Part shown: in pieces, positions 5,619 to 20,631 of the stretch
Layout of the letters: every line of letters starts with the position of its first letter
Numbering within the stretch: position 1 is the first letter of the stretch
Source of the DNA: a virus
DNA length: 21,093 nucleotides
Virus record (IMG/VR): IMGVR_UViG_3300025137_006726
Location: 1 to 21,093 of that record
Strand: one strand, 5' to 3'
Position numbers and translations under genes: made by a program
Notes under the pieces: generated by a model
Told to the model about the DNA's origin: nothing
Databases searched by the model: none
Seen by the model: only the letters and a program-made list of their open reading frames with translations

Positions 5619-5921
5619 TTACATCCACATTTGGGCTGCGATTGATCCAGCGATAGCCACCACAGCTACCCAGAATAGTTTATTTATAATACTTACTGTA
5701 TTTGCATTATCTCTTACTTGATCTTCTATGCTATCAAGCTTTTTGCTGAAATGATTCATACGTTCCCAGCCATTATCCTGGGCCTCTTTTATAGTAACAA
5801 TCTTCTCTTCAGCGCGAGCTAAAGAGATCATAGCATCGGTAAGATTATCCAGCTTTTCCTCAATTCTGTCAAGTCGTGCTGCTGTTGTCATACTTATTTC
5901 CGGTGTTAGAGATGGTTTCAT
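5619..5921 (-). CDS. Small tail-anchored coiled-coil membrane protein
   Basis: A 100-aa protein with a helical, heptad-like region (about 14-75, ARLDRIEEKLDNLTDAMISL and similar) and a single C-terminal membrane segment (about 83-98, FWVAVVAIAGSIAAQMW). This predicts a tail-anchored inner-membrane protein with its coiled coil in the cytoplasm or periplasm. Met11 is an alternative start with a slightly better GGAA upstream. The topology resembles phage membrane proteins near lysis genes, but nothing specifically identifies it as a holin or antiholin. I do not recognise a characterised homologue. Confidence 0.7.
   Translation of the reverse strand: MKPSLTPEISMTTAARLDRIEEKLDNLTDAMISLARAEEKIVTIKEAQDNGWERMNHFSKKLDSIEDQVRDNANTVSIINKLFWVAVVAIAGSIAAQMWM
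5681..5688 (-). promoter_or_regulatory. Possible internal T4-type late promoter
   Basis: An exact TATAAATA octamer on the minus strand, inside the 100-aa gene and about 75 nt upstream of the EF-hand-like gene start. It could reinforce late transcription of the lysis-proximal genes. Being inside a coding region of an AT-rich genome, it could also be chance. Confidence 0.3.
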
Positions 5922-5924
5922 AGT

Positions 5925-6203
5925 TTAACAATTCCAACGTCTACGAGCTGCTTTGCCTCTTTCTCCTGTCCAACTTTTTGAACGAGAACAAAAGGCCTTC
6001 CTTCGGTTTGCTGCTTTGCTTCCCGGCTTCAATTTACTTGGCTTAGTAGTAACAGCTGTTTGTAACTTACTTCCTGGATTACGTCTACGATATGCCGCTA
6101 CACCTTTTTGAGTCATACCTGCGCCTTTGTCCACTGATCTTTTGTGACCAGATCCGACTGACATACCAGACATATCTTCTAAAAATGCAGTAAACCTTAT
6201 CAT
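5925..6203 (-). CDS. Small basic phage protein (DUF6321-like)
   Basis: A 92-aa protein. Following a short variable start it has the pattern MTQKGVAAYRRRNPGSKLQT, then KPGSKAANRRKAFCSRS and a C-terminal SWTGERGKAARRRWNC. This matches a small Arg/Lys/Gly/Ser-rich family widespread in phages (DUF6321 as I recall it), usually of unknown function. Cys72 and Cys92 are the only cysteines. The start overlaps the stop of the preceding 437-aa gene by 4 nt (ATGA). High basic charge and late position suggest contact with DNA or RNA, which is inference. Confidence 0.78.
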   Translation of the reverse strand: MIRFTAFLEDMSGMSVGSGHKRSVDKGAGMTQKGVAAYRRRNPGSKLQTAVTTKPSKLKPGSKAANRRKAFCSRSKSWTGERGKAARRRWNC

Positions 6204-7513
6204 GACATTCCTATATTTTTCTTTCTATAATCTGCAAGATCTTTCTCAGCTGCTTTGCGCTTTTCTGTTGCTTTCTTAGCATCAGCTTCACGATCAGCCA
6301 TTGTTCTGTTTCCAGCTTTATTTACAATAGCCATCAATCTATCTCTTGCACTACCTTCTTCGACATTTTCATTAGCACGTTTACTAATGGCAGCTAAAGA
6401 GTTCTGAGTAGATGTCATTGTTTTCATTCTTTTCTTTATTGCTTTTTTTGCCTTAGGAGCCAAACTCTTAAATCCACCAGGGCCTTGTTGCTTCATCATG
6501 TCTGGATTATCTTTATACATTCTTGCACCAGCATCATCTTCATTCATACCTGCAGATACTTTTGCAGAAGAACTTTGTCCCATTTTCTTACGAATTTTAT
6601 CATCAGCCATCTTCTGGCCACCGATTCGTTTATCTTGTGTACGAGCACTGGCTCCAGGCTTTCCAGCCGCAGCGGCAGATTTTCTCATATAGTTGCCTAA
6701 AGTATTTGAAGAGACTTCGTTAACACCTTTTTTCAATCTTTCCAGATCTTTTTTAAGTTTGTCTTTGTCAACTGAACTCGCTTTTTTGTTTAGACCAGTT
6801 TTAGAAATATCTTTCATACTCATTGATAGTTCATTCATATCTGGTTTATCGTGAGTGTATCCCATCTTATCATACTTATTATGATCTGCTGGTGACTTAG
6901 CCATTACCTTTTTACCAGTCTTGGGATCGTACATTGGATGTGGATATTCAACTTCTTCTGCTACTTTCTTGGCAGCCGCAGTTGCAATAGCCATCTTCTT
7001 GGCCATAGGCATATCGGGATTGTCACGTTTCATCGCTTGAGCTATTTCTTCTCTCTTCTTTTTTTCATTAGAAGTAAGATGTTTTTCACCCATGGGTTTT
7101 TGTTTAAGATATTTTTCTCGAGATATGGGGGGGCCACCGTATTCCTTTACCGCTTTTTTATCTTTTTCCCAAGGAGCTTTAGCAACTGAAACCTGGTCTT
7201 TAGGTTTAGCTTTAGCTGAACCGATAGCTGCTGCACGAGCTATTTGCTTACGAGAAAGCACTGCTTCGTCCATTTTCTTTTTCATCTTCTTGTATGTTTC
7301 CATACCTTTTTTCTTTGCTGGCTTAGGTTCAGTTTCAGCGGTTGCCATACGTTTCATAGCGCCTTCACCCATATGTTCTGTATGCTCTTGCTGAGCAGTT
7401 CTACGCCTATCCATTATAGACTTTGCATGGGTATGCAAAGGGTGCTTTGGATTGCTAGCAATAGCAGCTAATCTTCTATTATCTAAACTATCTGGATCTT
7501 GATTAATTGACAT
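6200..7513 (-). CDS. Long Lys-rich phage protein, probably virion or head associated
   Basis: A 437-aa, strikingly Lys/Ala/Met-rich protein with little predicted globular structure. Recognisable pieces are KRDNPDMPMAKKMAIATAAA (about 160-180), a DPKTGKKVMAKSPADHNKYD segment (near 198-218), RMYKDNPDMMKQQGPGGFKS (about 331-350), and a C-terminal helical Lys-rich tail. NPDMPMAKK-type segments recur in marine T4-like phage proteins of unknown role. TAGGAG precedes the start. It lies between the DUF5824 fusion and the DUF6321-like gene in the late unit. Composition fits a DNA-condensing or scaffold-like protein, but no function can be assigned. Confidence 0.75.
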   Translation of the reverse strand: MSINQDPDSLDNRRLAAIASNPKHPLHTHAKSIMDRRRTAQQEHTEHMGEGAMKRMATAETEPKPAKKKGMETYKKMKKKMDEAVLSRKQIARAAAIGSAKAKPKDQVSVAKAPWEKDKKAVKEYGGPPISREKYLKQKPMGEKHLTSNEKKKREEIAQAMKRDNPDMPMAKKMAIATAAAKKVAEEVEYPHPMYDPKTGKKVMAKSPADHNKYDKMGYTHDKPDMNELSMSMKDISKTGLNKKASSVDKDKLKKDLERLKKGVNEVSSNTLGNYMRKSAAAAGKPGASARTQDKRIGGQKMADDKIRKKMGQSSSAKVSAGMNEDDAGARMYKDNPDMMKQQGPGGFKSLAPKAKKAIKKRMKTMTSTQNSLAAISKRANENVEEGSARDRLMAIVNKAGNRTMADREADAKKATEKRKAAEKDLADYRKKNIGMS

Positions 7514-12711: not shown

Positions 12712-12737
12712 ATAAAAAAAGGAGCCGGAGGCTCCTT
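12712..12737 (-). terminator. Intrinsic terminator of the DUF932 unit
   Basis: On the minus strand the sequence folds as AAGGAGCC-TCC-GGCTCCTT, an 8-bp stem with a 3-nt loop, followed directly by seven T residues. The stem overlaps the stop codon of the 62-aa gene. It separates the early-type unit from the late promoter that begins one base further on. Confidence 0.88.
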
Positions 12738-12924
12738 AGATTCTTCTTATGTAAGCCTTATTACCTCTCTTCTCAGCTTTGTATTGATACTTCTCAAATC
12801 CACTATCAATCAAATCTTGATTAAGGTTATTAACTATCTTACTAATGTGGACAAATTCATCCTTAGTTTCCACAGTCCCAACAAGATCTGGGTTCTCTTT
12901 ATCATTTATCAGCTTCACTTTCAC
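12736..12924 (-). CDS. 62-aa protein of unknown function
   Basis: A GTG-initiated frame encoding a small soluble protein (KVKLINDKENPDLVGTVETK at the start, KYQYKAEKRGNKAYIRRI at the end). The early part suggests a small beta structure and the end is basic. It overlaps the 34-aa gene by 23 nt and ends inside the terminator stem, so it is the last gene of the DUF932 unit. I do not recognise a family. The well-placed terminator supports it being translated. An alternative GTG two codons in would make it slightly shorter. Confidence 0.65.
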   Translation of the reverse strand: MKVKLINDKENPDLVGTVETKDEFVHISKIVNNLNQDLIDSGFEKYQYKAEKRGNKAYIRRI

Positions 12925-13006: not shown

Positions 13007-13172
13007 TATCTCTCATCCTGAATCTAATATCGCAATATCCACACTTTACTTCACCACCCTTTGGTATTGTGTAATATACTAAGGGGTGGTCAAAGTTTTC
13101 TCCGCTACAGCTGACACGATCGGTGTCGCTGTAGACTATAACATCTTCATATCCATCAGGCCGCTGTTGCAT
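12996..13172 (-). CDS. 58-aa zf-CHCC zinc-finger protein
   Basis: The protein starts MQQRPDGYEDVIVYSDTD and has C22 in VSCSGENFDHPLVYY, H29 in the same stretch, and C44 and C47 in EVKCGYCDIRFRM. Cys, then His after 6 residues, then a CxxC followed by an aromatic, is the CHCC pattern seen in zf-CHCC domain proteins, a family that includes the mitochondrial complex I subunit NDUFS6 and small bacterial proteins. Zinc binding is therefore well supported. The role in a phage is unknown; an adaptor or nucleic-acid-related role is possible. The start lies inside the end of the DUF932 gene (17-nt overlap), so translation is probably coupled. Confidence 0.75.
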   Translation of the reverse strand: MQQRPDGYEDVIVYSDTDRVSCSGENFDHPLVYYTIPKGGEVKCGYCDIRFRMRDNEG

Positions 13173-14127
13173 ACTCCACAGCCTTATTTACTGCCTTGAC
13201 TTTACGTGCTTGGTTCTGACCAAACCATGCAGATTGTAAACGTGTCTCAGCATTACGACCCATCGTATGATCAGTCATATATGTTACGGAGTTAAGTGCT
13301 TGCCACCAAGTTCCTTCACCAAAGTTTGCACCAGGCTGAGTATAGAGAACATCCATAGCAGCTTTGGCATTCTTAGTTAAGTCTTCAATAGCTTTGACTT
13401 CTTTGCCTTTACTGTATGTGTGTGGGAATACTTCATTGTAATAGTTAATAAGAGACTCTACAGAGAACTTCTTAGTAGATAAGAACTCAGCCATTTCTTT
13501 ATACTTTGCAAACTTCTCAGATGCAAGACCCATTTGTTGCTTAACCATATCAGCATCAAACTTACTACGGTGGTTTAACTTTACAAAGTTCTTAGACGCA
13601 GCCTGCAAAGAGAATGTCAAAGTATTGTTACATACAACTCGAACAGGAGTAAAGCGAACATCAATAGCCTTACCATACTCATGTGGGTTTGAGAACAACA
13701 AATAAGAATCCACTTGATCTTCACCAAGGATAGAGAAGGACTCTTTTACCTTAGCAAGAGCAAATACATTCTTACCACCTTTGAGTGAACCTGCTGTATT
13801 CATTTCCATATCGCCAGCAAGAACATACTCTGAGAAGAACTCAAAGGCATTTTCGTTTTGAACAGGATTCCAATCATCACCAATAACATCTAGTACTTTT
13901 TGATCTGTAGAGCGTACTAGGGCTTGCTTGTTAACACTAACAGCTTTACCTCCACGATTAGTAAAGTATAAAGGTACTTTTTCTACTGACCAATCAAGCC
14001 CAGCTTTTTTCATAATCTGATTGGGAGTAAGATCATTAGATACTTCTACACCAAGACCATGCCAAGGCTTCTCGCCTGCATAAGCCATTTGTGCTACTCC
14101 ATTAACCATTTCAACTTCATGTGACAT
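13156..14127 (-). CDS. DUF932 (phage/plasmid-like) protein
   Basis: A 323-aa protein. The N-terminus (MVNGVAQMAYAGEKPWHGLG) and later RFTPVRVVCNNTLTFSL (about 158-174) and FAKYKEMAEFL segments are characteristic of DUF932, a family spread through phages and plasmids and often called phage/plasmid-like protein. No enzymatic function is established. It is full length for the phage branch. It is the first gene of a four-gene early-type unit whose promoter lies in the 3' end of the PEP carboxykinase gene. AAGGAA 8 nt upstream is the ribosome site. The remaining genes of the unit are a zf-CHCC protein and two tiny proteins. Confidence 0.9.
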   Translation of the reverse strand: MSHEVEMVNGVAQMAYAGEKPWHGLGVEVSNDLTPNQIMKKAGLDWSVEKVPLYFTNRGGKAVSVNKQALVRSTDQKVLDVIGDDWNPVQNENAFEFFSEYVLAGDMEMNTAGSLKGGKNVFALAKVKESFSILGEDQVDSYLLFSNPHEYGKAIDVRFTPVRVVCNNTLTFSLQAASKNFVKLNHRSKFDADMVKQQMGLASEKFAKYKEMAEFLSTKKFSVESLINYYNEVFPHTYSKGKEVKAIEDLTKNAKAAMDVLYTQPGANFGEGTWWQALNSVTYMTDHTMGRNAETRLQSAWFGQNQARKVKAVNKAVEYATAA

Positions 14128-14154: not shown

Positions 14155-14183
14155 AGTATAGTATATTCTTAAAGTAAGGTCAA
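14155..14183 (-). promoter_or_regulatory. Early-type sigma70 promoter of the DUF932 unit
   Basis: TTGACC and TATACT are separated by exactly 17 nt on the minus strand, upstream of the DUF932 gene. The -35 and spacer lie in the last codons of the PEP carboxykinase gene. The whole segment (CTGTTGACCTTACTTTAAGA...) closely resembles the promoter at 17640-17668, suggesting a shared phage early promoter. Confidence 0.75.
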
Positions 14184-15362
14184 CAGTTTATTTTGAATTT
14201 CTTCAGAAATATCTTCTGCATCTAAATCTATTGCCGACTTCACACAAGTTCTAGTAAAGTCTAATGGAAATCTATTACCGTTAGGATCCATGCCAGAATT
14301 AATTAAATATACATTGCAGTTATTCTTCTCAATCTTTTCCATTAACAGATCACTATAAACATTTATATGTCTTGGCATAAATGGGGATCCATAACAAGGA
14401 GAAAAGATCTTTTTAATTTCAGTAGTGCCAGCTTCAGTACCTGGCATCTGACTTGTATAACCAGTCTCAAAAAACTTACGGACAGTCTCTCCACTTATCT
14501 TGGATGATGGAGGAAAGACACCTTGAGCGTCCATAGTTAGAAAGAATATATTATTTGGATGAGAAAACTGTTGTTGACTGACATGAGCATTCATAACACA
14601 ATTTAAAGGATAGCTCAGACGAGCATTAGCCGCACCAGGATTCTCAACAACTAACGTCTCTCTTTGTTTAGCAAGTTCTACTGCTTCGAATATAGTAGAG
14701 TGAGTTTCTGGAGTTAACCCTTCGCTCTTAGCATAACAACCTGTTTCAATCATTGCTATGCCTTTTTTATTCCACAACACTTCATCATCCGATATCAAAC
14801 CATATTCTGGATCGCTACTAAGTGTGGTCTTGCCAGTACCAGATAACCCAAACATAAGATTAGTTGTATCTTTGTAAGTAAAAGCTGAGCAATGCATAGG
14901 AAGAATATTTTCATCAGGAAGCTCGAAACTGATAATACCAAACACACCTTTTTTGATCTCACCCAGAAAGGTTGTTCCTCCTACCAACATTATCTTTTGA
15001 TCAAGATGAACAAATATTCTAGGAGGGCAATCAATCTCAGTATTATGAATTATCTTCCAATCAGATAAGTGTTCATTAGGATCATCAGGATCAGAAACAA
15101 CAGGAAACATATTACGAACAAACTGAGCATGTCTATCATCATTTGTCATTACACTAAAACATCTACCAGATGAATAAAACTTTAGATAATGTTTGTAATC
15201 ATAATCATTTAGATCTTCAAAGAATTCCCAATAGTCAGCTTCTTTTCCAACCTTATTGTACTTTGGTCTACTCAGATCTAACAGTCTTGTTTTGTTACCA
15301 AAGTAGAATTTGTTTTCAGGACTGCGGCCTGTAGGATGAGTAGTTATTTCAATGTTGGGCAT
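14169..15362 (-). CDS. pckA: Compact phosphoenolpyruvate carboxykinase (ATP)
   Basis: Catalyses oxaloacetate + ATP to PEP + CO2 + ADP (EC 4.1.1.49), the entry step of gluconeogenesis. Visible elements are TGRSP with R13, GEIKKG (K137, K138), MHCSA with H157, the P-loop GLSGTGKT (172-179), SDDE (D192, D193) for the second metal motif, the ETGCYAK segment, ARLSYP with R248, and NRFPLDFTRT, the counterpart of the nucleotide-binding GKRISIKDTR of E. coli. At 397 aa it is far shorter than the usual 520-540 aa: both the N-terminal region and roughly 90-100 residues at the C-terminus are missing, yet the active-site set is retained. The residue matching E. coli Tyr207 appears to be Phe132. It overlaps kdsA by 14 nt. 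Confidence 0.93.
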   Translation of the reverse strand: MPNIEITTHPTGRSPENKFYFGNKTRLLDLSRPKYNKVGKEADYWEFFEDLNDYDYKHYLKFYSSGRCFSVMTNDDRHAQFVRNMFPVVSDPDDPNEHLSDWKIIHNTEIDCPPRIFVHLDQKIMLVGGTTFLGEIKKGVFGIISFELPDENILPMHCSAFTYKDTTNLMFGLSGTGKTTLSSDPEYGLISDDEVLWNKKGIAMIETGCYAKSEGLTPETHSTIFEAVELAKQRETLVVENPGAANARLSYPLNCVMNAHVSQQQFSHPNNIFFLTMDAQGVFPPSSKISGETVRKFFETGYTSQMPGTEAGTTEIKKIFSPCYGSPFMPRHINVYSDLLMEKIEKNNCNVYLINSGMDPNGNRFPLDFTRTCVKSAIDLDAEDISEEIQNKLLTLL

Positions 15363-16131
15363 AATTGAATTCCATTATATTATCTACGACTTGATCAAAG
15401 TCTTCTAGTTTAAGCATGTTGGGTCCATCCGATGGGGCATTGTCTGGATCAGAATGCACTTCTAAGAAGAAGTTAGATATGCCCAAAGCAGAAGCAGCAC
15501 GAGTAAGCCCTGGGACCCAAGCACGATTGCCACCTGAACTTTCACCGCTTCCTCCAGGTTTCTGGCAGGAGTGTGTTGCATCAAATACAATCGGAACGCT
15601 ATAGTTATCAAGCATGTACTGCAAACCATTAAAATCGACAACAAGATTATTATAACCAAAACTAGTACCTCTTTCAGTTATCCAGACTTCTTTTGCTTTC
15701 TTTGTTTTACTTAGTATACCATTAACATCCCATGGAGCTAAGAACTGACCTTTTTTAATATTAACAATACAATCTGTTTTACATGCTTCAAGTATCAAGT
15801 CTGTTTGTCTACAGAGAAAAGCAGGTATCTGTAATACATCTACTGCACTATAATATCCATAACATAATGCTCTAATTTGATCAACCGTATGGACATCAGT
15901 AAGAATTTTAAGACCTGATAGTTCATTTTTAAGGTCTATAAAAGCATGGTGAGTTGGTATTAATCCTAATCCTCTTTCACCATCCATAGATGTTCTATTT
16001 GCCTTATCAAAGCTAGCCTTGAAGTAATAATCAACACCATACTTATCACATACTTGCTTACAATGCTCAGCGATCTCACCTGATCTTCCTATGCTTTCAT
16101 GTTGGCAAGGGCCAGCAATAATTCTAACCAT
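15349..16131 (-). CDS. kdsA: KdsA, 3-deoxy-8-phosphooctulonate (KDO-8-P) synthase, metal-dependent type
   Basis: Condenses PEP with arabinose 5-phosphate to KDO-8-phosphate (EC 2.5.1.55), the first committed step to the LPS sugar KDO. Signatures are IIAGPC (C9), FKASFDKANRTS (37-48), LTDVH (77-81), QIPAFLCRQTDL (101-112), NIKKGQFLAPWD (124-135), ERGTSFGYNNLVVD (153-166), DATHS with H187, and E224 and D235. C9/H187/E224/D235 match the four metal ligands of the Aquifex-type enzyme, whereas the E. coli enzyme has Asn at the first position. At 260 aa it is normal length, apparently complete and probably functional. It overlaps aldolase (8 nt) and pckA (14 nt), so the three are probably translated together. 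DAHP synthase is unlikely given the KANRTS motif. Confidence 0.94.
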   Translation of the reverse strand: MVRIIAGPCQHESIGRSGEIAEHCKQVCDKYGVDYYFKASFDKANRTSMDGERGLGLIPTHHAFIDLKNELSGLKILTDVHTVDQIRALCYGYYSAVDVLQIPAFLCRQTDLILEACKTDCIVNIKKGQFLAPWDVNGILSKTKKAKEVWITERGTSFGYNNLVVDFNGLQYMLDNYSVPIVFDATHSCQKPGGSGESSGGNRAWVPGLTRAASALGISNFFLEVHSDPDNAPSDGPNMLKLEDFDQVVDNIMEFNYAQH

Positions 16132-16921
16132 TAGAAGCAGTCTTTATCATAACAATGTTCTCTCCAATAGTATTATTGAAAGTTTTTTCATCCATATCTT
16201 TCATGAGCCTTTCACTTAACGCTCTAGAAAAGCTTGCTGTCATTCCATTGTTCACCACTAATCTTCTACATGCTTGCTTAGTAGTGTAACCTCCACTAAG
16301 ACCGACTACTTTCTCAATACGATCGTGACTCATCAATGGTTTGTATAAGTTGGGAACTTCTGGTAGTGTAAGTTTAAGAATACATCGTCCTTTAAATATT
16401 TCTAGTTTTTCTCCCAACTCATGAAGTAATGCTTCCTCCAGATATTTTTTTTCTGGATGGTTAATTGGGATCTCAGGTTCAACAATGGGCATAAGTCCTG
16501 CCTCGGATACCACCTCTGCAATAGCTAATTGCTGAGTTAATATCATATCCATATCTTTTACGTCTTTAAGAATACTGCGCATCTTAGTACCATTGCAGTT
16601 ATGTTCTTGAGCGTAATTAACCATGTCGCTCCATCTAAAATATTTTAGATAGCCATTTTCCTCTACACCACTATCAATTTTTAAATAAGACTGAATTCCT
16701 TTTTGTTTTAATATTGGTACCATACCACGATCGACAGTATCTTTGTACAAGATCGCTGCCCAGATGTTATCAGATACAAACATGGGAGAGTTTACCATAC
16801 GAAGTCTCATCTGATGAACTTTATCCATCTTATCATCTTCTGTAAACTCTTCACCATATCTTTCTAAAACACCTCCGGTAGAACCTCCAGAGTGATCCAT
16901 TGCTGCAATGAACTTACTCAT
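16124..16921 (-). CDS. fda: Class I fructose-1,6-bisphosphate aldolase
   Basis: Reversible cleavage of fructose 1,6-bisphosphate to DHAP and glyceraldehyde 3-phosphate (EC 4.1.2.13). This 265-aa protein follows the bacterial class I type known from Staphylococcus. Its motifs are FIAAMDHSGGST (4-15), LKID (80-83), NGTKMRSIL (110-118), PIVEPEIPI (145-153) with the catalytic Glu pair, ILKLTLPEV (181-189) with Schiff-base Lys183, VGLSGGYT (206-213) and TASFSRAL (228-235) for phosphate binding. It is somewhat shorter than the roughly 295-aa bacterial enzymes, mainly by compaction. No metal-dependent (class II) motifs are present. Its start overlaps the 51-aa membrane protein gene by 8 nt. In this operon it sits upstream of kdsA and pckA. 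Confidence 0.92.
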   Translation of the reverse strand: MSKFIAAMDHSGGSTGGVLERYGEEFTEDDKMDKVHQMRLRMVNSPMFVSDNIWAAILYKDTVDRGMVPILKQKGIQSYLKIDSGVEENGYLKYFRWSDMVNYAQEHNCNGTKMRSILKDVKDMDMILTQQLAIAEVVSEAGLMPIVEPEIPINHPEKKYLEEALLHELGEKLEIFKGRCILKLTLPEVPNLYKPLMSHDRIEKVVGLSGGYTTKQACRRLVVNNGMTASFSRALSERLMKDMDEKTFNNTIGENIVMIKTASNG

Positions 16922-17069
16922 TTGGCATGGCTTCTAATGCAGCTTCAATTTTATCTAAGTTATTCTCTATGCTAGTAAGTCTATTTTCTATTTCATCTGC
17001 TACTATAAAAGATAGTACCAAAGCAACAGCTAGCATACTCCAAAAAATATATGGAAAATATTTACTCAT
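16914..17069 (-). CDS. 51-aa single-span membrane protein
   Basis: A small frame with a very strong ribosome site (GGAGG, 8 nt before ATG). The sequence begins MSKYFPYIFWSMLAVALVLS, giving one membrane segment at about residues 6-24, then a short charged heptad-like helix (NRLTSIENNLDKIEAALEAM). It overlaps HAD by one base (TAATG) and aldolase by 8 nt. The family is not recognised. It could be a membrane-anchored partner of the neighbouring enzymes, or unrelated and inserted into the operon. Confidence 0.75.
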   Translation of the reverse strand: MSKYFPYIFWSMLAVALVLSFIVADEIENRLTSIENNLDKIEAALEAMPNE

Positions 17070-17395
17070 TAATAACCTCCTGTATCTCTAAAAAAGTCTT
17101 CGGACCAAAATGCTTTATCATCAATCCAAATGTCATAGTTTTCTTTTTGACCAACGCTGAGTTCATGATACTTACATCCCCATGCCCACAATTGTTCTTT
17201 AGTAAGATCGTAATAGTCAACACCACTAACACATCCTCTCGCAGTCATATACTTGATTGTGTGTCCTAATGTATACAATCTATTAACTTTACGGATTCGT
17301 TTCATAATAGGTATATGGTTTGCATAATCCTTTTTACCATTTTCAAGAAGTACTTCTTCACAAATGGTTCCGTCAATATCAATTACATATTTCAT
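17069..17395 (-). CDS. HAD-superfamily phosphatase (sugar-phosphate type)
   Basis: A minimal 108-aa haloacid dehalogenase-fold phosphohydrolase. Motif I is VIDIDGTIC with nucleophile D6 and acid/base D8, motif II is YMTARG (T51), Lys84 is the likely motif III residue, and motif IV is WIDDKA (D92, D93). It lacks a cap domain. Very similar small HADs occur in phages and in bacterial capsule or LPS gene clusters next to sugar nucleotidyltransferases. The location two genes upstream of kdsA makes KDO-8-P or another sugar phosphate a reasonable substrate, but KdsC itself is larger, so this is only a hypothesis. It could equally be a 5'-nucleotidase-like enzyme. Confidence 0.85.
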   Translation of the reverse strand: MKYVIDIDGTICEEVLLENGKKDYANHIPIMKRIRKVNRLYTLGHTIKYMTARGCVSGVDYYDLTKEQLWAWGCKYHELSVGQKENYDIWIDDKAFWSEDFFRDTGGY

Positions 17396-17613
17396 TACGT
17401 CCTTTCCAATCTATTAGCGCAATATTCCATGTCCATGTAGTCATTCATTTCACGCTCTTCACGCTCAATGTTTTTTTCCAGTTCTTCACAAAGCTCAAAC
17501 AACTCGATAACAATCGAAGTGCGAGTCTTGCCGTACTTATGAGCTCTGCGAGCTAGACTAGACAATTTCTTTTTCATTGTCATTGCATCTTGAATATCTC
17601 TAACTATAATCAT
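17395..17613 (-). CDS. 72-aa helical protein of unknown function
   Basis: First gene of the metabolic operon. The product is predicted to be all-helical with a basic N-terminal half (MKKKLSSLARRAHKYGKT) and a very acidic middle (ELFELCEELEKNIEREEREM). The chosen start at 17613 has AAGGAG 6 nt upstream; in-frame ATGs at 17616 and 17628 are alternatives giving up to 77 aa. The stop shares one base with the HAD start. No family is recognised. A regulatory or adaptor role cannot be excluded. Confidence 0.65.
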   Translation of the reverse strand: MIIVRDIQDAMTMKKKLSSLARRAHKYGKTRTSIVIELFELCEELEKNIEREEREMNDYMDMEYCANRLERT

Positions 17614-17639
17614 CATAATCTCCTTCATTTCCTAACACC

Positions 17640-17668
17640 CTTATCGGATATTCTAAACATAAAGTCAA
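17640..17668 (-). promoter_or_regulatory. Early-type sigma70 promoter of the carbon-metabolism operon
   Basis: TTGACT and GATAAG with a 17-nt spacer lie on the minus strand in the 72-nt gap after the GAPDH stop. Sequence around it (CTGTTGACTTTATGTTTAGA, then ATATCC...AAGGG) closely resembles the DUF932 promoter. It would drive the 72-aa, HAD, membrane, aldolase, kdsA and pckA genes. Confidence 0.65.
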
Positions 17669-17685
17669 CAGTTAATTTACTTTTA

Positions 17686-18648
17686 TTACAAATAACCTAT
17701 GTATGATGCTGTATCAGCCATTCGACAACTAAATGCCCATTCATTGTCATACCATCCTAACACACGACCCATATGTTTATCAATTACTTGTGTTTGATCT
17801 GAAGCAATAATACAACTCTCAGAAGTGTGATTATAATCAATACTTACTAATGGCTGAGTCTCATATCCTAAGACACCGTTCATATAATGATGAGAATATT
17901 TGGCAAAGGCTAGATTAACTTCTCTTTCAGTTAATTCAGTTTCTGATTGGAAAGTAAAATCTACACAGCTCACATTAGCTGTTGGAACTCTGATAGCACT
18001 GCCTGTTAGTTTACCTTGCAGTTCAGGTATTATCTTTCCTATGTTTTTTGTAGCACCAGTGCTGGTAGGTATCATACTCATACCTGCTGTTCTTGCTCGA
18101 TAGGGATCTTTGTGTCTACGATCAACTGTACTTTGATCTCCAGTGTATGAATGCACAGTTGTCATTACACCTCTTTTTATTCCAAACTCTTTATGCAATA
18201 CTAAGGCCATAGGCGCAAGACAATTTGTAGTACAACTGGCATTACTAATGATATTTTCACTAGGTAACACTTCTGTATGGTTAACTCCATACACTACAGT
18301 TCTATCTACATTTTTTGCAGGAGCGCTGATTAGAACTTTGCTTGCACCATTGCTAATATGTGCCTTTGCGAGCTCACCATCATTGAACGCTCCTGTGCAC
18401 TCCAATACTATATCTACTCCACTCCAGTCACACTTCTTTATATCTCTTGTATGACTCCACTTTACTTTATCACTAAGCTTACCTCTCCATCTTCCATGTA
18501 TACTATCATAATGTAAAAGATGACTATTGGAATCATAATCACCTGAAGCATTTATCTTAACAATTTCTAAATCGTTTCGTTCATCTAAGATGTGACGAGC
18601 AACGCATCGACCTATCCTACCAAATCCATTTATACCAATTCTTACCAT
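17686..18648 (-). CDS. gap: Glyceraldehyde-3-phosphate dehydrogenase
   Basis: Interconverts glyceraldehyde 3-phosphate and 1,3-bisphosphoglycerate (EC 1.2.1.12/13). At 320 aa it is near full length. Visible elements are the Rossmann start MVRIGINGFGRIGR, the catalytic SNASCTTN with C139, the active-site H166 in TTVHSYTGDQ, the IPTSTGATK segment (193-201) and the C-terminal GWYDNEWAFS. The position after the second strand, usually Asp in NAD-specific enzymes (IND), is Ala34 (KINASGD), and the usual Pro of the DLPHKD segment is Arg178 (DRRHKD); both changes suggest relaxed or NADP(H) specificity. A TATATAAAATA stretch (18663-18673) in the divergent gap is a possible promoter element. No strong Shine-Dalgarno is seen. 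Confidence 0.93.
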   Translation of the reverse strand: MVRIGINGFGRIGRCVARHILDERNDLEIVKINASGDYDSNSHLLHYDSIHGRWRGKLSDKVKWSHTRDIKKCDWSGVDIVLECTGAFNDGELAKAHISNGASKVLISAPAKNVDRTVVYGVNHTEVLPSENIISNASCTTNCLAPMALVLHKEFGIKRGVMTTVHSYTGDQSTVDRRHKDPYRARTAGMSMIPTSTGATKNIGKIIPELQGKLTGSAIRVPTANVSCVDFTFQSETELTEREVNLAFAKYSHHYMNGVLGYETQPLVSIDYNHTSESCIIASDQTQVIDKHMGRVLGWYDNEWAFSCRMADTASYIGYL

Positions 18649-18687
18649 AAACTATCATAACCTATTTTATATAATATGTCTACAAAT

Positions 18688-18695
18688 TATAAATA
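18688..18695 (+). promoter_or_regulatory. T4-type late promoter of the plus-strand oxidative unit
   Basis: An exact TATAAATA in the 74-nt divergent gap, 27 nt upstream of the first plus-strand gene, which has AAGGAG 7 nt before its ATG. Being intergenic and correctly placed, it is a good T4-type late promoter candidate. The surrounding sequence is extremely AT-rich, so chance is not excluded. Confidence 0.6.
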
Positions 18696-18722
18696 TATAT
18701 ATTACAAATAAGGAGTAAGATA

Positions 18723-19304
18723 ATGAGTAGATTTGTCAAATCCCTAGAAAATAATAAAGATGCAATTGAAGTATTTGATACAATAAAAGAAATGTATTAT
18801 TTTATAAAAGACTGGGAAGGATTTAGAGCCTCAAAAAGTCAGTTTACTGTAACAGATGACAATCATCATATTGTAGATCAGGAATTTCCTCTTATTGCTG
18901 AGTTTAGAGAAAAGTATAAAATGTCTAACTTTATGCTAGTGATGGAATATTCCAATCCAAACTTCTATACTACCAAGCCTCATTCTCACAATATTGAAAA
19001 TACAACAGGTTCAATATTTTGGCCTATTGTTTATTCTAAATATGCTGCTACATCATTTTATCTACCACCAGAAGAAACTATTGTTGATAGAAATGTCAAA
19101 GGCGCAAATTTTAAACTAAAAGAATCTAATTGGGATAAACCTGAAGAAACTGTTCAACTTCAATATCCAACTGTATTTCATATGAATCATTTTCATAGAC
19201 CTGTAGCATTAGAAGACCACGCTGACAATGCTAAGCGGGTTGTATGCAATTGGGAAGCGAAAAGTGGAGTTTCATATGAAGAATTATCAGAGTTGTTAAG
19301 TTAA
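18723..19304 (+). CDS. Putative double-stranded beta-helix (cupin/2OG oxygenase-like) protein
   Basis: A 193-aa protein leading the plus-strand unit, with a strong AAGGAG site. The first 65 residues are helical. The middle and end look like a beta-rich core: LVMEYSNPNFYTTKPHSHN (72-90) with H87 and H89, SIFWPIVYSKYAATSFYLPP (97-116), and FHMNHFHRPVALEDHADNAK (152-171) followed by RVVCNWEAK. A strand ending in xHxH, and a later His-rich segment next to an Arg-containing strand, are the general pattern of cupin or Fe(II)/2-oxoglutarate folds. No exact HxD...H set can be fixed by eye. The family is therefore tentative; the gene itself is solid. Confidence 0.65.
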   Translation: MSRFVKSLENNKDAIEVFDTIKEMYYFIKDWEGFRASKSQFTVTDDNHHIVDQEFPLIAEFREKYKMSNFMLVMEYSNPNFYTTKPHSHNIENTTGSIFWPIVYSKYAATSFYLPPEETIVDRNVKGANFKLKESNWDKPEETVQLQYPTVFHMNHFHRPVALEDHADNAKRVVCNWEAKSGVSYEELSELLS

Positions 19305-20053
19305 TGAATCACAATACATTAGTGCGCGCGACACAAATACTTAATCACATTTTACTATTAGTGGGATTAAGTTTGATCTTCTTTTATGAGGTTTCAGCTA
19401 TATATCTTTTGTACAGCTTATTCATCTATTGGTTCATAGGTGTGATGGGTATTAACGTAGGATATCATAGACTTATTAGTCATAGAAGTTTTGAAACATA
19501 TAAATGGCTAGAATATACTTTAGGATTGATTGGTTGTATTACAATGATAGGTAGTCCGATTGCATGGACTGCGATACATAGACAACATCATGGCCATGCT
19601 GATACTGATGAAGATGTACACAGCCCTTACAAATTAGGTTGGGTAAAAGCATGGTTTGGTTTTTGGAACATACAACACATTCATCCAAAATATATAAAAG
19701 ATATACGTAAACAAAGTTTTTACAAACTTACACACAAATATTATTTTTTAATTAATATAGTATACGCCGTTACCCTATTTGCGATAAATCCATTACTTGT
19801 AATATTTGCTTATGCTATCCCAACAGTATTAGTATTACACAGTACAAGTGCTATTATTGTAATAGCACACATACATGGATATAAAAATCACAATGTAGAT
19901 GATGAAAGTAGAAATAGTTGGATTGCAAGTTTAATTACGTTAGGAGAAGGTTGGCATAACAACCACCATGCAAATAGTAAAGCATGGAATAATCAAGAAC
20001 GTTGGTGGGAACTTGATCCGCCTGCATGGATAATAAGAGTAATAAAAAAATGA
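19304..20053 (+). CDS. Membrane fatty-acid desaturase (acyl-CoA/acyl-lipid delta-9 type)
   Basis: Diiron integral-membrane desaturase that introduces a double bond into fatty-acyl chains. It has all three histidine boxes: HRLISH (55-60), HRQHH (92-96, followed by GHAD) and HNNHH (218-222, within GEGWHNNHH). Membrane segments lie at about 12-29, 33-50, 70-90, 145-162 and 165-188. At 249 aa it is compact but complete for bacterial and phage desaturases. Related desaturases are known in marine cyanophages. The start shares one base with the preceding stop (TAATG) and the end overlaps the diiron gene by 4 nt. Chain position and lipid substrate cannot be told from the sequence. It could change membrane fluidity during infection. 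Confidence 0.92.
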   Translation: MNHNTLVRATQILNHILLLVGLSLIFFYEVSAIYLLYSLFIYWFIGVMGINVGYHRLISHRSFETYKWLEYTLGLIGCITMIGSPIAWTAIHRQHHGHADTDEDVHSPYKLGWVKAWFGFWNIQHIHPKYIKDIRKQSFYKLTHKYYFLINIVYAVTLFAINPLLVIFAYAIPTVLVLHSTSAIIVIAHIHGYKNHNVDDESRNSWIASLITLGEGWHNNHHANSKAWNNQERWWELDPPAWIIRVIKK

Positions 20054-20631
20054 CAAATGATGATTACTATATGAATCATGTTTACATGAGTGAGTACTGG
20101 CTCTGGCAATACATGTTAAAACATTTTAACAACCATGATAATCCTAGATGGCTTAAACAACTGAGAGACGAAAAAAAGCACAGTGCTATGGCAAGAGGAG
20201 CTTTACGTAAATGTATTCCATTAGATAGCATTATTACAGACCCATCGATAAGTATTGAGAAAGCTATGTTTGAAGGTATTGGAAAACTAGACGTTGACAA
20301 TATTCCAGTAGATCACTTTCCTGCATTTGTGTATGTTGTTGAGAGAAGGGCATGCATGTTATTTAAAGCCTATGTCCGTAAGGGATCAAACGAATATTAT
20401 AAAAAAATGACTAAAAGACTTTTGCATGATGAAGCTGACCATTTAGATATTCACAAGCAATCTGCACAACAGTTAGGTGTGTATGAATACTACTACGAAC
20501 TAGATAAAAAAATATGGAAGGGAATAAGTGAAGCATATTCAGATGGAAAAACCGCATTTTTTGATAACACTCAATACTGGAAAGACTTATTTGCAAATAA
20601 GTTAAAGGATAATGTAAATGTCTTATGTTAA
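20050..20631 (+). CDS. Ferritin-like diiron-carboxylate protein
   Basis: A 193-aa helical protein with the ligand spacing of a diiron four-helix bundle: E15 in YMSEYW, E41xxH44 in DEKKH, E98 in VVERRAC and E128xxH131 in HDEADH. The intervals (26, 3, 54, 30, 3) are close to those of aldehyde-deformylating oxygenase and related ferritin-like oxidases. Which substrate it acts on is unknown; a tRNA hydroxylase (MiaE-like), a fatty-acid or aldehyde oxidase or a simple iron protein are all possible. The start at 20050 is chosen because it overlaps the desaturase stop (ATGA). It overlaps the next gene by 14 nt. Being next to a desaturase hints at lipid-related oxidation. Confidence 0.75.
   Translation: MTNDDYYMNHVYMSEYWLWQYMLKHFNNHDNPRWLKQLRDEKKHSAMARGALRKCIPLDSIITDPSISIEKAMFEGIGKLDVDNIPVDHFPAFVYVVERRACMLFKAYVRKGSNEYYKKMTKRLLHDEADHLDIHKQSAQQLGVYEYYYELDKKIWKGISEAYSDGKTAFFDNTQYWKDLFANKLKDNVNVLC

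Follow-up and report, generated by a model that had tools for sequence, protein, structure and literature searches.

A phage gene cluster for putative gluconeogenesis linked to KDO synthesis in a T4-like viral contig

Gene cluster and proposed pathway

What a phage might gain from encoding five enzymes of sugar metabolism in one run of genes is the question raised by IMG/VR virus record IMGVR_UViG_3300025137_006726, a sequence of 21,093 bases that is probably a fragment and is referred to here, over its whole length, as the window. Its minus strand encodes a glyceraldehyde-3-phosphate dehydrogenase (GAPDH), a small phosphatase of the haloacid dehalogenase (HAD) type, a class I fructose-bisphosphate aldolase, a 3-deoxy-D-manno-octulosonate (KDO)-8-phosphate synthase (KdsA) and a phosphoenolpyruvate (PEP) carboxykinase (PEPCK). 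It is suggested here, with moderate confidence, that these genes form an auxiliary-metabolism operon which runs gluconeogenesis during infection and directs part of the carbon to KDO.

In the proposed pathway, PEPCK would convert host oxaloacetate into PEP, some of which would be taken by KdsA, the product of the overlapping gene, together with host arabinose-5-phosphate to give KDO-8-phosphate. The remaining PEP would pass through host enolase, phosphoglycerate mutase and phosphoglycerate kinase (PGK) to the phage GAPDH, which would reduce 1,3-bisphosphoglycerate with NADPH. The aldolase would join triose phosphates, and the HAD protein would dephosphorylate the aldolase product, most simply fructose-bisphosphate (FBP) or sedoheptulose-bisphosphate (SBP), making the flux one-way to hexose and pentose phosphates. 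These could feed phosphoribosyl pyrophosphate (PRPP) and nucleotides, and could supply arabinose-5-phosphate for KdsA. If this is correct, phages of marine heterotrophs would redirect cells that live on organic acids towards making sugars, and would thereby gain carbon for both viral nucleotides and surface sugars when glucose is lacking.

The genes belong to a single operon-like run extending on the minus strand from position 18648 down to 12736, in the order GAPDH, orf77, HAD, an open reading frame (ORF) of 51 aa, aldolase, KdsA, PEPCK, a DUF932 gene and orf62, after which a terminator-like hairpin is found. The type I GAPDH (320 aa; 17686–18648) is the first gene of the run and is followed by the HAD phosphatase (108 aa; 17069–17395), the aldolase (265 aa; 16124–16921), KdsA (260 aa; 15349–16131) and a compact ATP-type PEPCK (397 aa; 14169–15362). 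A preliminary description of the locus had given these five genes the same positions, strand and enzyme families, and both were borne out, by the ORF list and by Pfam, NCBIfam and PHROG matches respectively. The short overlaps it had reported between aldolase and kdsA (8 nt) and between kdsA and pckA (14 nt) are real, and further overlaps occur between orf77 and HAD (1 nt), HAD and the 51-aa ORF (1 nt), and the 51-aa ORF and aldolase (8 nt). As each junction from HAD to PEPCK overlaps, these genes could be translationally coupled.

GAPDH and PEPCK

The GAPDH of the window passed the TIGR01534 model (372.8 bits, cut-off 367.2) and its catalytic Cys and His segments align with those of solved GAPDHs. 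Read against structure 1gd1, it has Ala at position 32 and Arg-Arg at 187/188, and it therefore lacks the signature of Asp32 with non-basic residues at 187/188, which we take to be the mark of the NAD-specific glycolytic enzyme. Among 22 phage GAPDH representatives (dereplicated at 95%, with proteins of 290 aa or less dropped), Ala32 was found in 21 and two basic residues (Lys/Arg) at 187/188 likewise in 21, the exception at both positions being L124, a 43% relative (loci and contigs are cited by our own handles). Cellular GAPDHs encoded near cellular aldolases served as a control, comprising the 8 of 10 GAPDH-bearing cellular loci with a match over 300 residues; all 8 kept Asp32 and none had the two-basic pair. 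Of two solved mutants, 1dbv departs from wild-type 1gd1 at positions 32 and 187/188 and 3dbv at positions 33–35 and 187/188; both were presumably made for NADP acceptance. The loss of Asp32 combined with the basic pair in 21 of the 22 representatives therefore predicts that the phage GAPDHs use NADP(H). In the gluconeogenic NADP-dependent GAPDHs Bacillus GapB and plant GapA, Asp32 is likewise lost and/or 187/188 changed; the phage enzymes differ in their pair of Lys/Arg residues, which none of the 8 cellular controls has. The pattern agrees with an enzyme that, like GapB, reduces 1,3-bisphosphoglycerate with NADPH, and it suggests that the enzymes run in the sugar-building direction; if so, an NADP-type GAPDH would be a marker, open to experiment, of the way in which flux runs through a viral enzyme.

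The possibility that the enzymes run glycolytically, for ATP, NADH and pyruvate, should also be considered, as GAPDH and aldolase can in principle work in either direction. However, aerobic glycolysis makes no use of PEPCK, and both the NADP-type signature and the phosphatase found beside most phage aldolases (see below) argue against it, so that this direction is regarded as highly improbable.

The window PEPCK matched PF01293 with an E value of 9e-90 and a score of 302, well over the gathering score of 26.5, although at 397 aa it is shorter than the full length of about 530–540 aa. The P-loop GLSGTGKTT, the kinase-2 Asp pair (Asp268/269), Arg65, Lys212, Lys213, His232 and Arg333, to which we assign active-site roles and which are numbered as in Escherichia coli Pck, are identical in that enzyme and the window protein. 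Tyr207, presumably an aid to CO2 binding, is replaced by Phe in 30 of 31 PEPCK representatives, including the window; if Tyr207 does have that function, its replacement might make the reverse reaction less efficient. The model of the protein (predicted local distance difference test, pLDDT, 88.5) gave Foldseek query TM-scores (TMq) of 0.80–0.87 to ATP-PEPCKs among the matches listed, so that the protein is predicted to fold as a trimmed ATP-PEPCK. That it is a broken remnant was ruled out, the compact form being common to all 31 representatives and the active-site residues being kept. These representatives were pooled from all loci and dereplicated at 97%, with proteins of 370 aa or less dropped.

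The IMG/VR scan with PEPCK gave 26 viral loci. Seven isolate-phage records held a match, at about 31–41% identity. To judge by nothing more than host and length, most isolate records with PEPCK or aldolase look like bacterial DNA labelled as phage. A genuine, though distant, phage copy may be present in H10, an uncultured phage of 636 kb whose PEPCK match has 41% identity over 68% of the query.

Aldolase and HAD phosphatase

The best family match of the aldolase was NF003784/PRK05377, while PF00274 was barely passed (23.3, cut-off 22.2); the aldolase profile matched structure 2iqt with an E value of 8e-69. In 11 phage aldolase rows aligned with 2iqt, Asp9, Lys81, Arg115, Glu148, Lys183 and Arg233 are invariant; we take these to be the Schiff-base Lys and the phosphate and acid-base residues. 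A search with the window protein alone found nothing, and a search with an alignment found 201 viral stretches. The best 80 of these 201 viral loci and the best 80 of 158 cellular loci were analysed. Identity does not exceed 41% for 77 of the 80 cellular aldolases, and these 77 have no HAD gene in the fetched stretch. The other three (L211–L213), at 55–65%, carry the same HAD, and one of them, L213 from a Rhodobacteraceae bin, resembles a T4-like phage contig, with T4-type clamp loader and dUTPase genes recognised by sight. As the cellular relatives are distant apart from these three, the phage aldolases seem to be an old viral lineage. Matches in isolate-phage records were limited to two, at 37%.

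The HAD protein matched phrog_1238 (E 3e-18), and its DxDGT, TARG and DK-pair motifs are kept in a 36-row alignment. Against TIGR01689 (EcbF-BcbF type) it scored 20 bits where the cut-off is 162. By sequence (hmmsearch E 8e-13) and by fold (model pLDDT 91; Foldseek E 6e-7, TMq 0.71), its nearest solved structure is 9iqw, which is titled as the D-arabinose 1,5-diphosphate phosphatase AfhF of phage HY126. Lower-ranked matches were 1xpj, the T4 Pnkp phosphatase and heptose bisphosphate phosphatases. A relative in coliphage HX01 lies near an annotated arabinose-5-phosphate isomerase, and the neighbours of relatives in cyanophages P-SSM2 and S-SM2 include genes annotated as sugar kinase, nucleotidyltransferase and class II aldolase. 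The AfhF match and these neighbours point to sugar phosphates and diphosphates as the likely substrates of the family, and the window protein is probably a sugar-(bis)phosphate phosphatase. It shares with AfhF the small HAD fold, the phage origin and 34% identity over the alignment; unlike the HX01 relative, its own subfamily sits with class I aldolase. Among the open PMC papers listed by a search, none was on the AfhF pathway itself. It should also be noted that in P-SSM2, S-SM2 and HX01 the small HAD is annotated as phosphoheptose isomerase, although the sequence and fold of the family match HAD phosphatases.

In the neighbourhoods of 52 dereplicated aldolases (95%; proteins of 230 aa or less dropped), HAD lies within 2.5 kb of 34. 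Counted with contig repeats, it is present in 68 of 94 aldolase loci and stands directly before the aldolase in 41 of those 68. Profiles for GlpX, Fbp and PGK were run against 9 contigs that each carry two or more genes of the set, and none matched. PGK would therefore be supplied by the host, unless it is encoded on missing contig parts. Given the pairing with aldolase and the lack of GlpX and Fbp matches in these contigs, FBP or SBP is the simplest choice of substrate for the HAD protein and is possibly the correct one. Were that so, the family would be a candidate new class of bisphosphatase.

Three further observations concern the genes around phage aldolases. In L139 (4163–5044; also L136, L140 and L141) the protein directly before a HAD-PEPCK-aldolase set has a weak Capsule_synth match (PF05159, E 0.005), below the gathering score. 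In L135 (1040–2997) and its relatives, BMP-type solute-binding and 2-oxoglutarate-oxygenase-like proteins, named by sight, stand directly before HAD-aldolase. In L213 a cytosine/purine permease-type transporter (5877–7286; by sight) directly follows the aldolase.

Recurrence of the gene set

The preliminary description had proposed a search of viral sequences for kdsA beside pckA and aldolase. Run in IMG/VR, this search found both the adjacency and the larger grouping on other contigs. Besides the window, PEPCK, GAPDH, aldolase and HAD occur together on eight contigs in four other orders (L078; L103, L104 and L123; L119; L101, L102 and L084), and this repeated grouping, like the GAPDH signature, agrees with the gluconeogenic character first proposed for the set. 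No KdsA was found on these eight contigs in the stretches searched: the five of at least 40 kb (G014, G035, G036, G038 and G040), which may be fragments, lack it, and none was present in the fetched stretches of L103, L104 and L119. Near misses to the full set are L013/L074 (PEPCK, HAD, aldolase, KdsA), L022 (KdsA, PEPCK, KdsB, aldolase), L005 (KdsA, PEPCK, KdsB, GAPDH), and L150 and L173 (HAD, aldolase, KdsA, KdsB).

Neighbourhood counts were made on simple ORF calls of our own, in which some genes are missed (e.g., the HAD gene of L084), and raw locus counts include near-copies and contigs fetched repeatedly. In the 79 aldolase loci tabulated, HAD was present in 60, PEPCK in 14, GAPDH in 9 and KdsA in 5. 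Within 2.5 kb of the 52 dereplicated aldolases, PEPCK was found in 8 cases, GAPDH in 6 and KdsA in 4. The GAPDH scan of IMG/VR gave 36 loci, and PEPCK lies within 3.5 kb of 9, and aldolase of 6, of the 22 dereplicated GAPDHs. From the contigs that searches with one or another of four genes had retrieved, 49 were chosen by length (at least 40 kb), and here PEPCK was found in 17, aldolase in 24, HAD in 18 (one weak), GAPDH in 14 and KdsA in 19. Among the 21 of at least 40 kb fetched by aldolase, 6 carry both PEPCK and GAPDH, 2 and 1 carry a single one of them and 12 carry neither (Fisher p 0.003, a value that is optimistic because some contigs are near-copies). Two separable modules meet in the window, one of PEPCK, GAPDH, aldolase and HAD and the other of KdsA and KdsB. 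Taken as an observation, the cluster first described is confirmed and extended, and the interpretation then given to it is partly supported.

KdsA and the link to PEPCK

The window KdsA passed NF003543 (322.2 bits, cut-off 242), was slightly below the cut-off for TIGR01362 (308.8, cut-off 314) and scored 209 against 457 for NF009109; its nearest solved structure is 3fs2 (E 1e-78). The motif KAS[FY]DKANR is kept, and Cys9, His187, Glu224 and Asp235, which we take to be the metal ligands, are invariant in 7 phage KdsA rows, so that by its residues the enzyme is predicted to be of the metal-dependent type. In the IMG/VR scan, KdsA relatives were present at 68 loci. KdsB is present in 51 of them, which makes phage KdsA-KdsB common, and a cupin in 53; the best score of the phage KdsB family was 160 bits, its cut-off being 193. 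Six isolate-phage records had a KdsA match, the best at 43%, and these include Synechococcus phage S-SCSM2R, in which KdsA and KdsB are annotated. In L025, L026 and L027 (cluster c63) an S-adenosylmethionine synthetase, named by sight, lies directly upstream of KdsA.

In the stretches fetched for the 68 KdsA loci, a PEPCK of the window type was found in 10, directly after KdsA in 8 of these; of all 68, 3 had aldolase, 2 HAD and 1 GAPDH. Counted from the other side, KdsA lies within 3.5 kb of 12 of the 31 phage PEPCK representatives, GAPDH, aldolase or HAD within that distance of 13, and KdsA or any of these of 23. On the PEPCK tree, where the window protein falls in the main KdsA-linked clade, the label of linkage to KdsA changes at least 3 times, as forced by well-supported branches, compared with a mean of 9.8 in shuffles. 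The order may be KdsA-PEPCK-KdsB, KdsA-KdsB-PEPCK or PEPCK-KdsA, and the link therefore outlasts rearrangement. The tie between PEPCK and KdsA pointed out in the preliminary description is thus upheld, and the recurrent linkage is good evidence, as judged from gene neighbourhoods, that PEP supply to KdsA is selected. If the proposed pathway holds, this would be a repeatedly selected link of PEP production to KDO synthesis.

The preliminary description had gone further, to what is read here as a single dedicated pathway from oxaloacetate to KDO, by which an altered lipopolysaccharide (LPS) would exclude other phages and in which the HAD protein would be the KDO-8-phosphate phosphatase (KdsC). 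The overlaps joining aldolase, KdsA and PEPCK in the window would suit such a pathway, as would the proximity of PEPCK to KdsA in 12 of 31 representatives and the frequency of KdsB. However, the five long contigs with the other four genes lack KdsA, and only 10 of the 68 KdsA loci have PEPCK. The HAD gene, moreover, accompanies 34 of 52 aldolases yet only 2 of 68 KdsA loci, and the protein had no match to the KdsC model TIGR01670 at E 0.001. As it tracks aldolase rather than KdsA and its nearest solved relative is a sugar-diphosphate phosphatase, it is probably not KdsC, and this candidate function was rejected; L150 and L173, which hold HAD, aldolase and KdsA together, weigh the other way on this split. 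Profiles for KdsC, KdsD and KpsC/S were searched in 40 of the 49 contigs. None matched KdsC or KdsD, so that the host would have to supply both steps unless they are encoded on missing contig parts. No KDO transferase was recognised there, KpsC/S giving no match over the cut-off and one below it, and no LPS transferase was identified. The dedicated pathway to KDO is accordingly considered improbable.

A different use of the sugar, in which KDO or another sugar derived from arabinose-5-phosphate would decorate phage DNA or virions rather than the cell surface, is brought to mind by the setting of KdsA-KdsB, which commonly lie beside DNA polymerase, primase-like, UvsX, UvsW and helicase genes (primase by PHROG, the rest by sight). 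The replication region may, however, simply be the usual site of extra genes in such phages. Beside UvsW, 15 KdsA loci (L010, L011, L016, L028, L045 and others) hold 51 copies of a protein of about 285 aa with an RPHP motif, in tandem runs of 2–4. Those tested had no Pfam, PHROG or PDB match, and they are possibly novel glycosyltransferases. Decoration would also agree with the AfhF-like character of the HAD protein and with the relative near arabinose-5-phosphate isomerase in HX01, a Mosigvirus, this being a genus with arabinosylated DNA according to the accessible text of PMC13390438. No DNA glycosyltransferase was identified, and this use of the sugar is given next to no likelihood. To our knowledge, KDO has not been reported from DNA.

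Nucleotide genes as a possible outlet

Genes of nucleotide metabolism lie within 2.5 kb of 22 of the 52 aldolases, compared with 4 of 52 for KdsA, which also speaks against KDO as the single product. They encode PRPP synthetase, phosphoribosyltransferase-like proteins (a weak match), and proteins of the inosine monophosphate dehydrogenase/GMP reductase (IMPDH/GMPR) and dihydroorotate dehydrogenase (DHODH) families, all by Pfam, together with ribonucleotide reductase (RNR)-like and dCMP deaminase-like genes named by sight. Out to 2.5 kb from the aldolases their density is 1.18 per 10 kb, and it falls to 0.30 at 2.5–5 kb and 0.15 at 5–8 kb. Genes for PRPP synthetase and phosphoribosyltransferase-like proteins number 16 within 2.5 kb and 1 at 2.5–8 kb. 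PRPP synthetase stands directly before HAD or aldolase (e.g., L101, L157, L164 and L180), and in L095 and L097 it abuts GAPDH and PEPCK. As the gene list was itself drawn from aldolase neighbourhoods, the enrichment is partly built in and the test a rough one.

These neighbours could mean that nucleotides are the main output. PEPCK, GAPDH, aldolase and HAD would then provide the pentose phosphate and PRPP needed for phage DNA, while KdsA would be an unrelated insertion at a hot spot. Such an unrelated insertion is difficult to reconcile with a KdsA-PEPCK linkage that recurs in several orders, or with a window KdsA that lies between two genes of the module and overlaps both, and this explanation is held to be rather unlikely.

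Several points weigh against the operon proposed here, in which both outlets would be served. All five genes were found together only in the window, and 8 of the 31 PEPCK representatives have no KdsA, GAPDH, aldolase or HAD gene within 3.5 kb. The PEPCK is far below the NCBIfam cut-off (best 299.6 bits, cut-off 636) and lacks about 50 N-terminal and 65–70 C-terminal residues of the E. coli enzyme, and the aldolase, with 232.6 bits, is below the NCBIfam equivalog cut-off of 392. No HAD was called near 18 of the 52 aldolases, some having been missed by the ORF caller, and AfhF, the nearest solved relative of the HAD protein, acts on an aldose diphosphate. The nucleotide-gene enrichment has the bias given above, and its clusters of RNR, dCMP deaminase and similar genes were named by sight.

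Comparison with known phage systems

The cyanophage genes talC, zwf, gnd and cp12 are comparable in that marine phages there carry central-carbon enzymes thought to feed pentose phosphates and dNTPs (PMC4053976), and talC, fba and others are named in the accessible part of Hurwitz (2013). The window differs from the cyanophage set in its entry point, oxaloacetate through PEPCK, and in its NADP-type GAPDH and its class I aldolase with a HAD partner; neither PEPCK nor gluconeogenesis is named in the accessible text of PMC4053976. For KDO, kdsA and kdsB are reported from surface-ocean viruses (PMC10653327; PMC5332604), and in a single environmental genome KdsA and aceBA occur alongside T4-like structural genes (PMC5332604); a coupling of kdsA to pckA, aldolase or GAPDH is not described in the available text of either paper. 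Viral PEPCK and aldolase from trench sediment have been annotated as gluconeogenic auxiliary metabolic genes (PMC12448302), and in the accessible portion of that source pckA and ALDO are listed separately, and nothing is said of an operon, a link to KdsA, a HAD partner or a cofactor signature. Viral kdsA, kdsB, pckA and ALDO are thus each already in print as auxiliary metabolic genes, as far as the accessible text of these sources goes. A search of open PMC papers (subscription papers, preprints and supplements being outside it) found no report of a pckA-kdsA link, of the PEPCK-GAPDH-aldolase-HAD set or of an NADP-type phage GAPDH.

A wider proposal, to be taken as tentative and on the doubtful side, is that phages of heterotrophs have built an NADPH-driven gluconeogenesis of their own. 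It would combine a compact PEP-making PEPCK, an NADP-type GAPDH, an aldolase of a phage clade and a new AfhF-like HAD class of FBP or SBP phosphatase, regrouped many times and with outlets to PRPP and nucleotides or to KDO. If true, this would be the heterotroph-phage counterpart of the carbon takeover by cyanophages through the pentose-phosphate pathway.

Genomic context and other features

The window also encodes RNR, two spanin-like proteins and a T4-like cytidyltransferase block, all by PHROG matches, and phage matches extend through the genes downstream of the operon. The complete circular phage record C48C1 encodes a protein that shares 64% identity with the orf408 product, and there too a cytidyltransferase is nearby. 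On the far side, on the plus strand, the sole phage match in the PHROG search was phrog_35201, of unknown function. Judged from these matches, the operon is a module embedded in T4-like phage DNA, as first described. Host or chimeric DNA was ruled out by the downstream PHROG matches and the C48C1 counterpart; it is also opposed by the finding that only L211–L213 of 80 cellular aldolases reach 55% identity, with the same HAD. The window RNR shares 65% identity with its counterpart in Rhizobium phage RHph_I1_18, and from this and the Rhodobacteraceae bin of L213 the hosts may be guessed to be alphaproteobacteria.

Among the remaining features of the run, orf77 (17395–17628, minus strand) had no family match in Pfam, NCBIfam or PHROG searches; partial relatives (53–74% over 54–57 aa) lie near phage PEPCK (L088) or GAPDH (L116 and L118). 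The 51-aa ORF (16914–17069, minus strand), which bridges HAD and aldolase, is preceded by AGGAGG and, on inspection by eye, contains a hydrophobic segment; it is shorter than the usual ORF listing length and was therefore not in the first list. The run ends with the short orf62 (12736–12924, minus strand) and the intrinsic terminator-like hairpin (12719–12737, minus strand), which has 8 pairs and a T-run; 6 such sites were found in the region compared with 3.0 expected by shuffling. At the other end, an AT-rich gap of 74 nt (18649–18722) separates GAPDH from the divergent orf193 on the plus strand and is a possible promoter region. Promoter-consensus matches in the region numbered 35, compared with 27.6 in shuffles, and a scan for the late promoter TATAAATA was not above chance (4 against 2.56).

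The gene after PEPCK encodes a phage-plasmid protein of the DUF932/TIGR03299 family (13156–14127, minus strand; Pfam, NCBIfam and PHROG). Genes of this family were also found in stretches near KdsA (L013, L043 and L044), PEPCK (L088), GAPDH (L108, L110 and L120–L122) and aldolase (L155 and L162), and may mark an insertion hot spot. The divergent plus-strand set (18723–20631) consists of orf193 and orf201, neither with a family, and a DesA-like fatty acid desaturase (19304–20053). Distant desaturases (29–30%) also lie near HAD-aldolase in L193, L194, L195, L197, L199 and L200.

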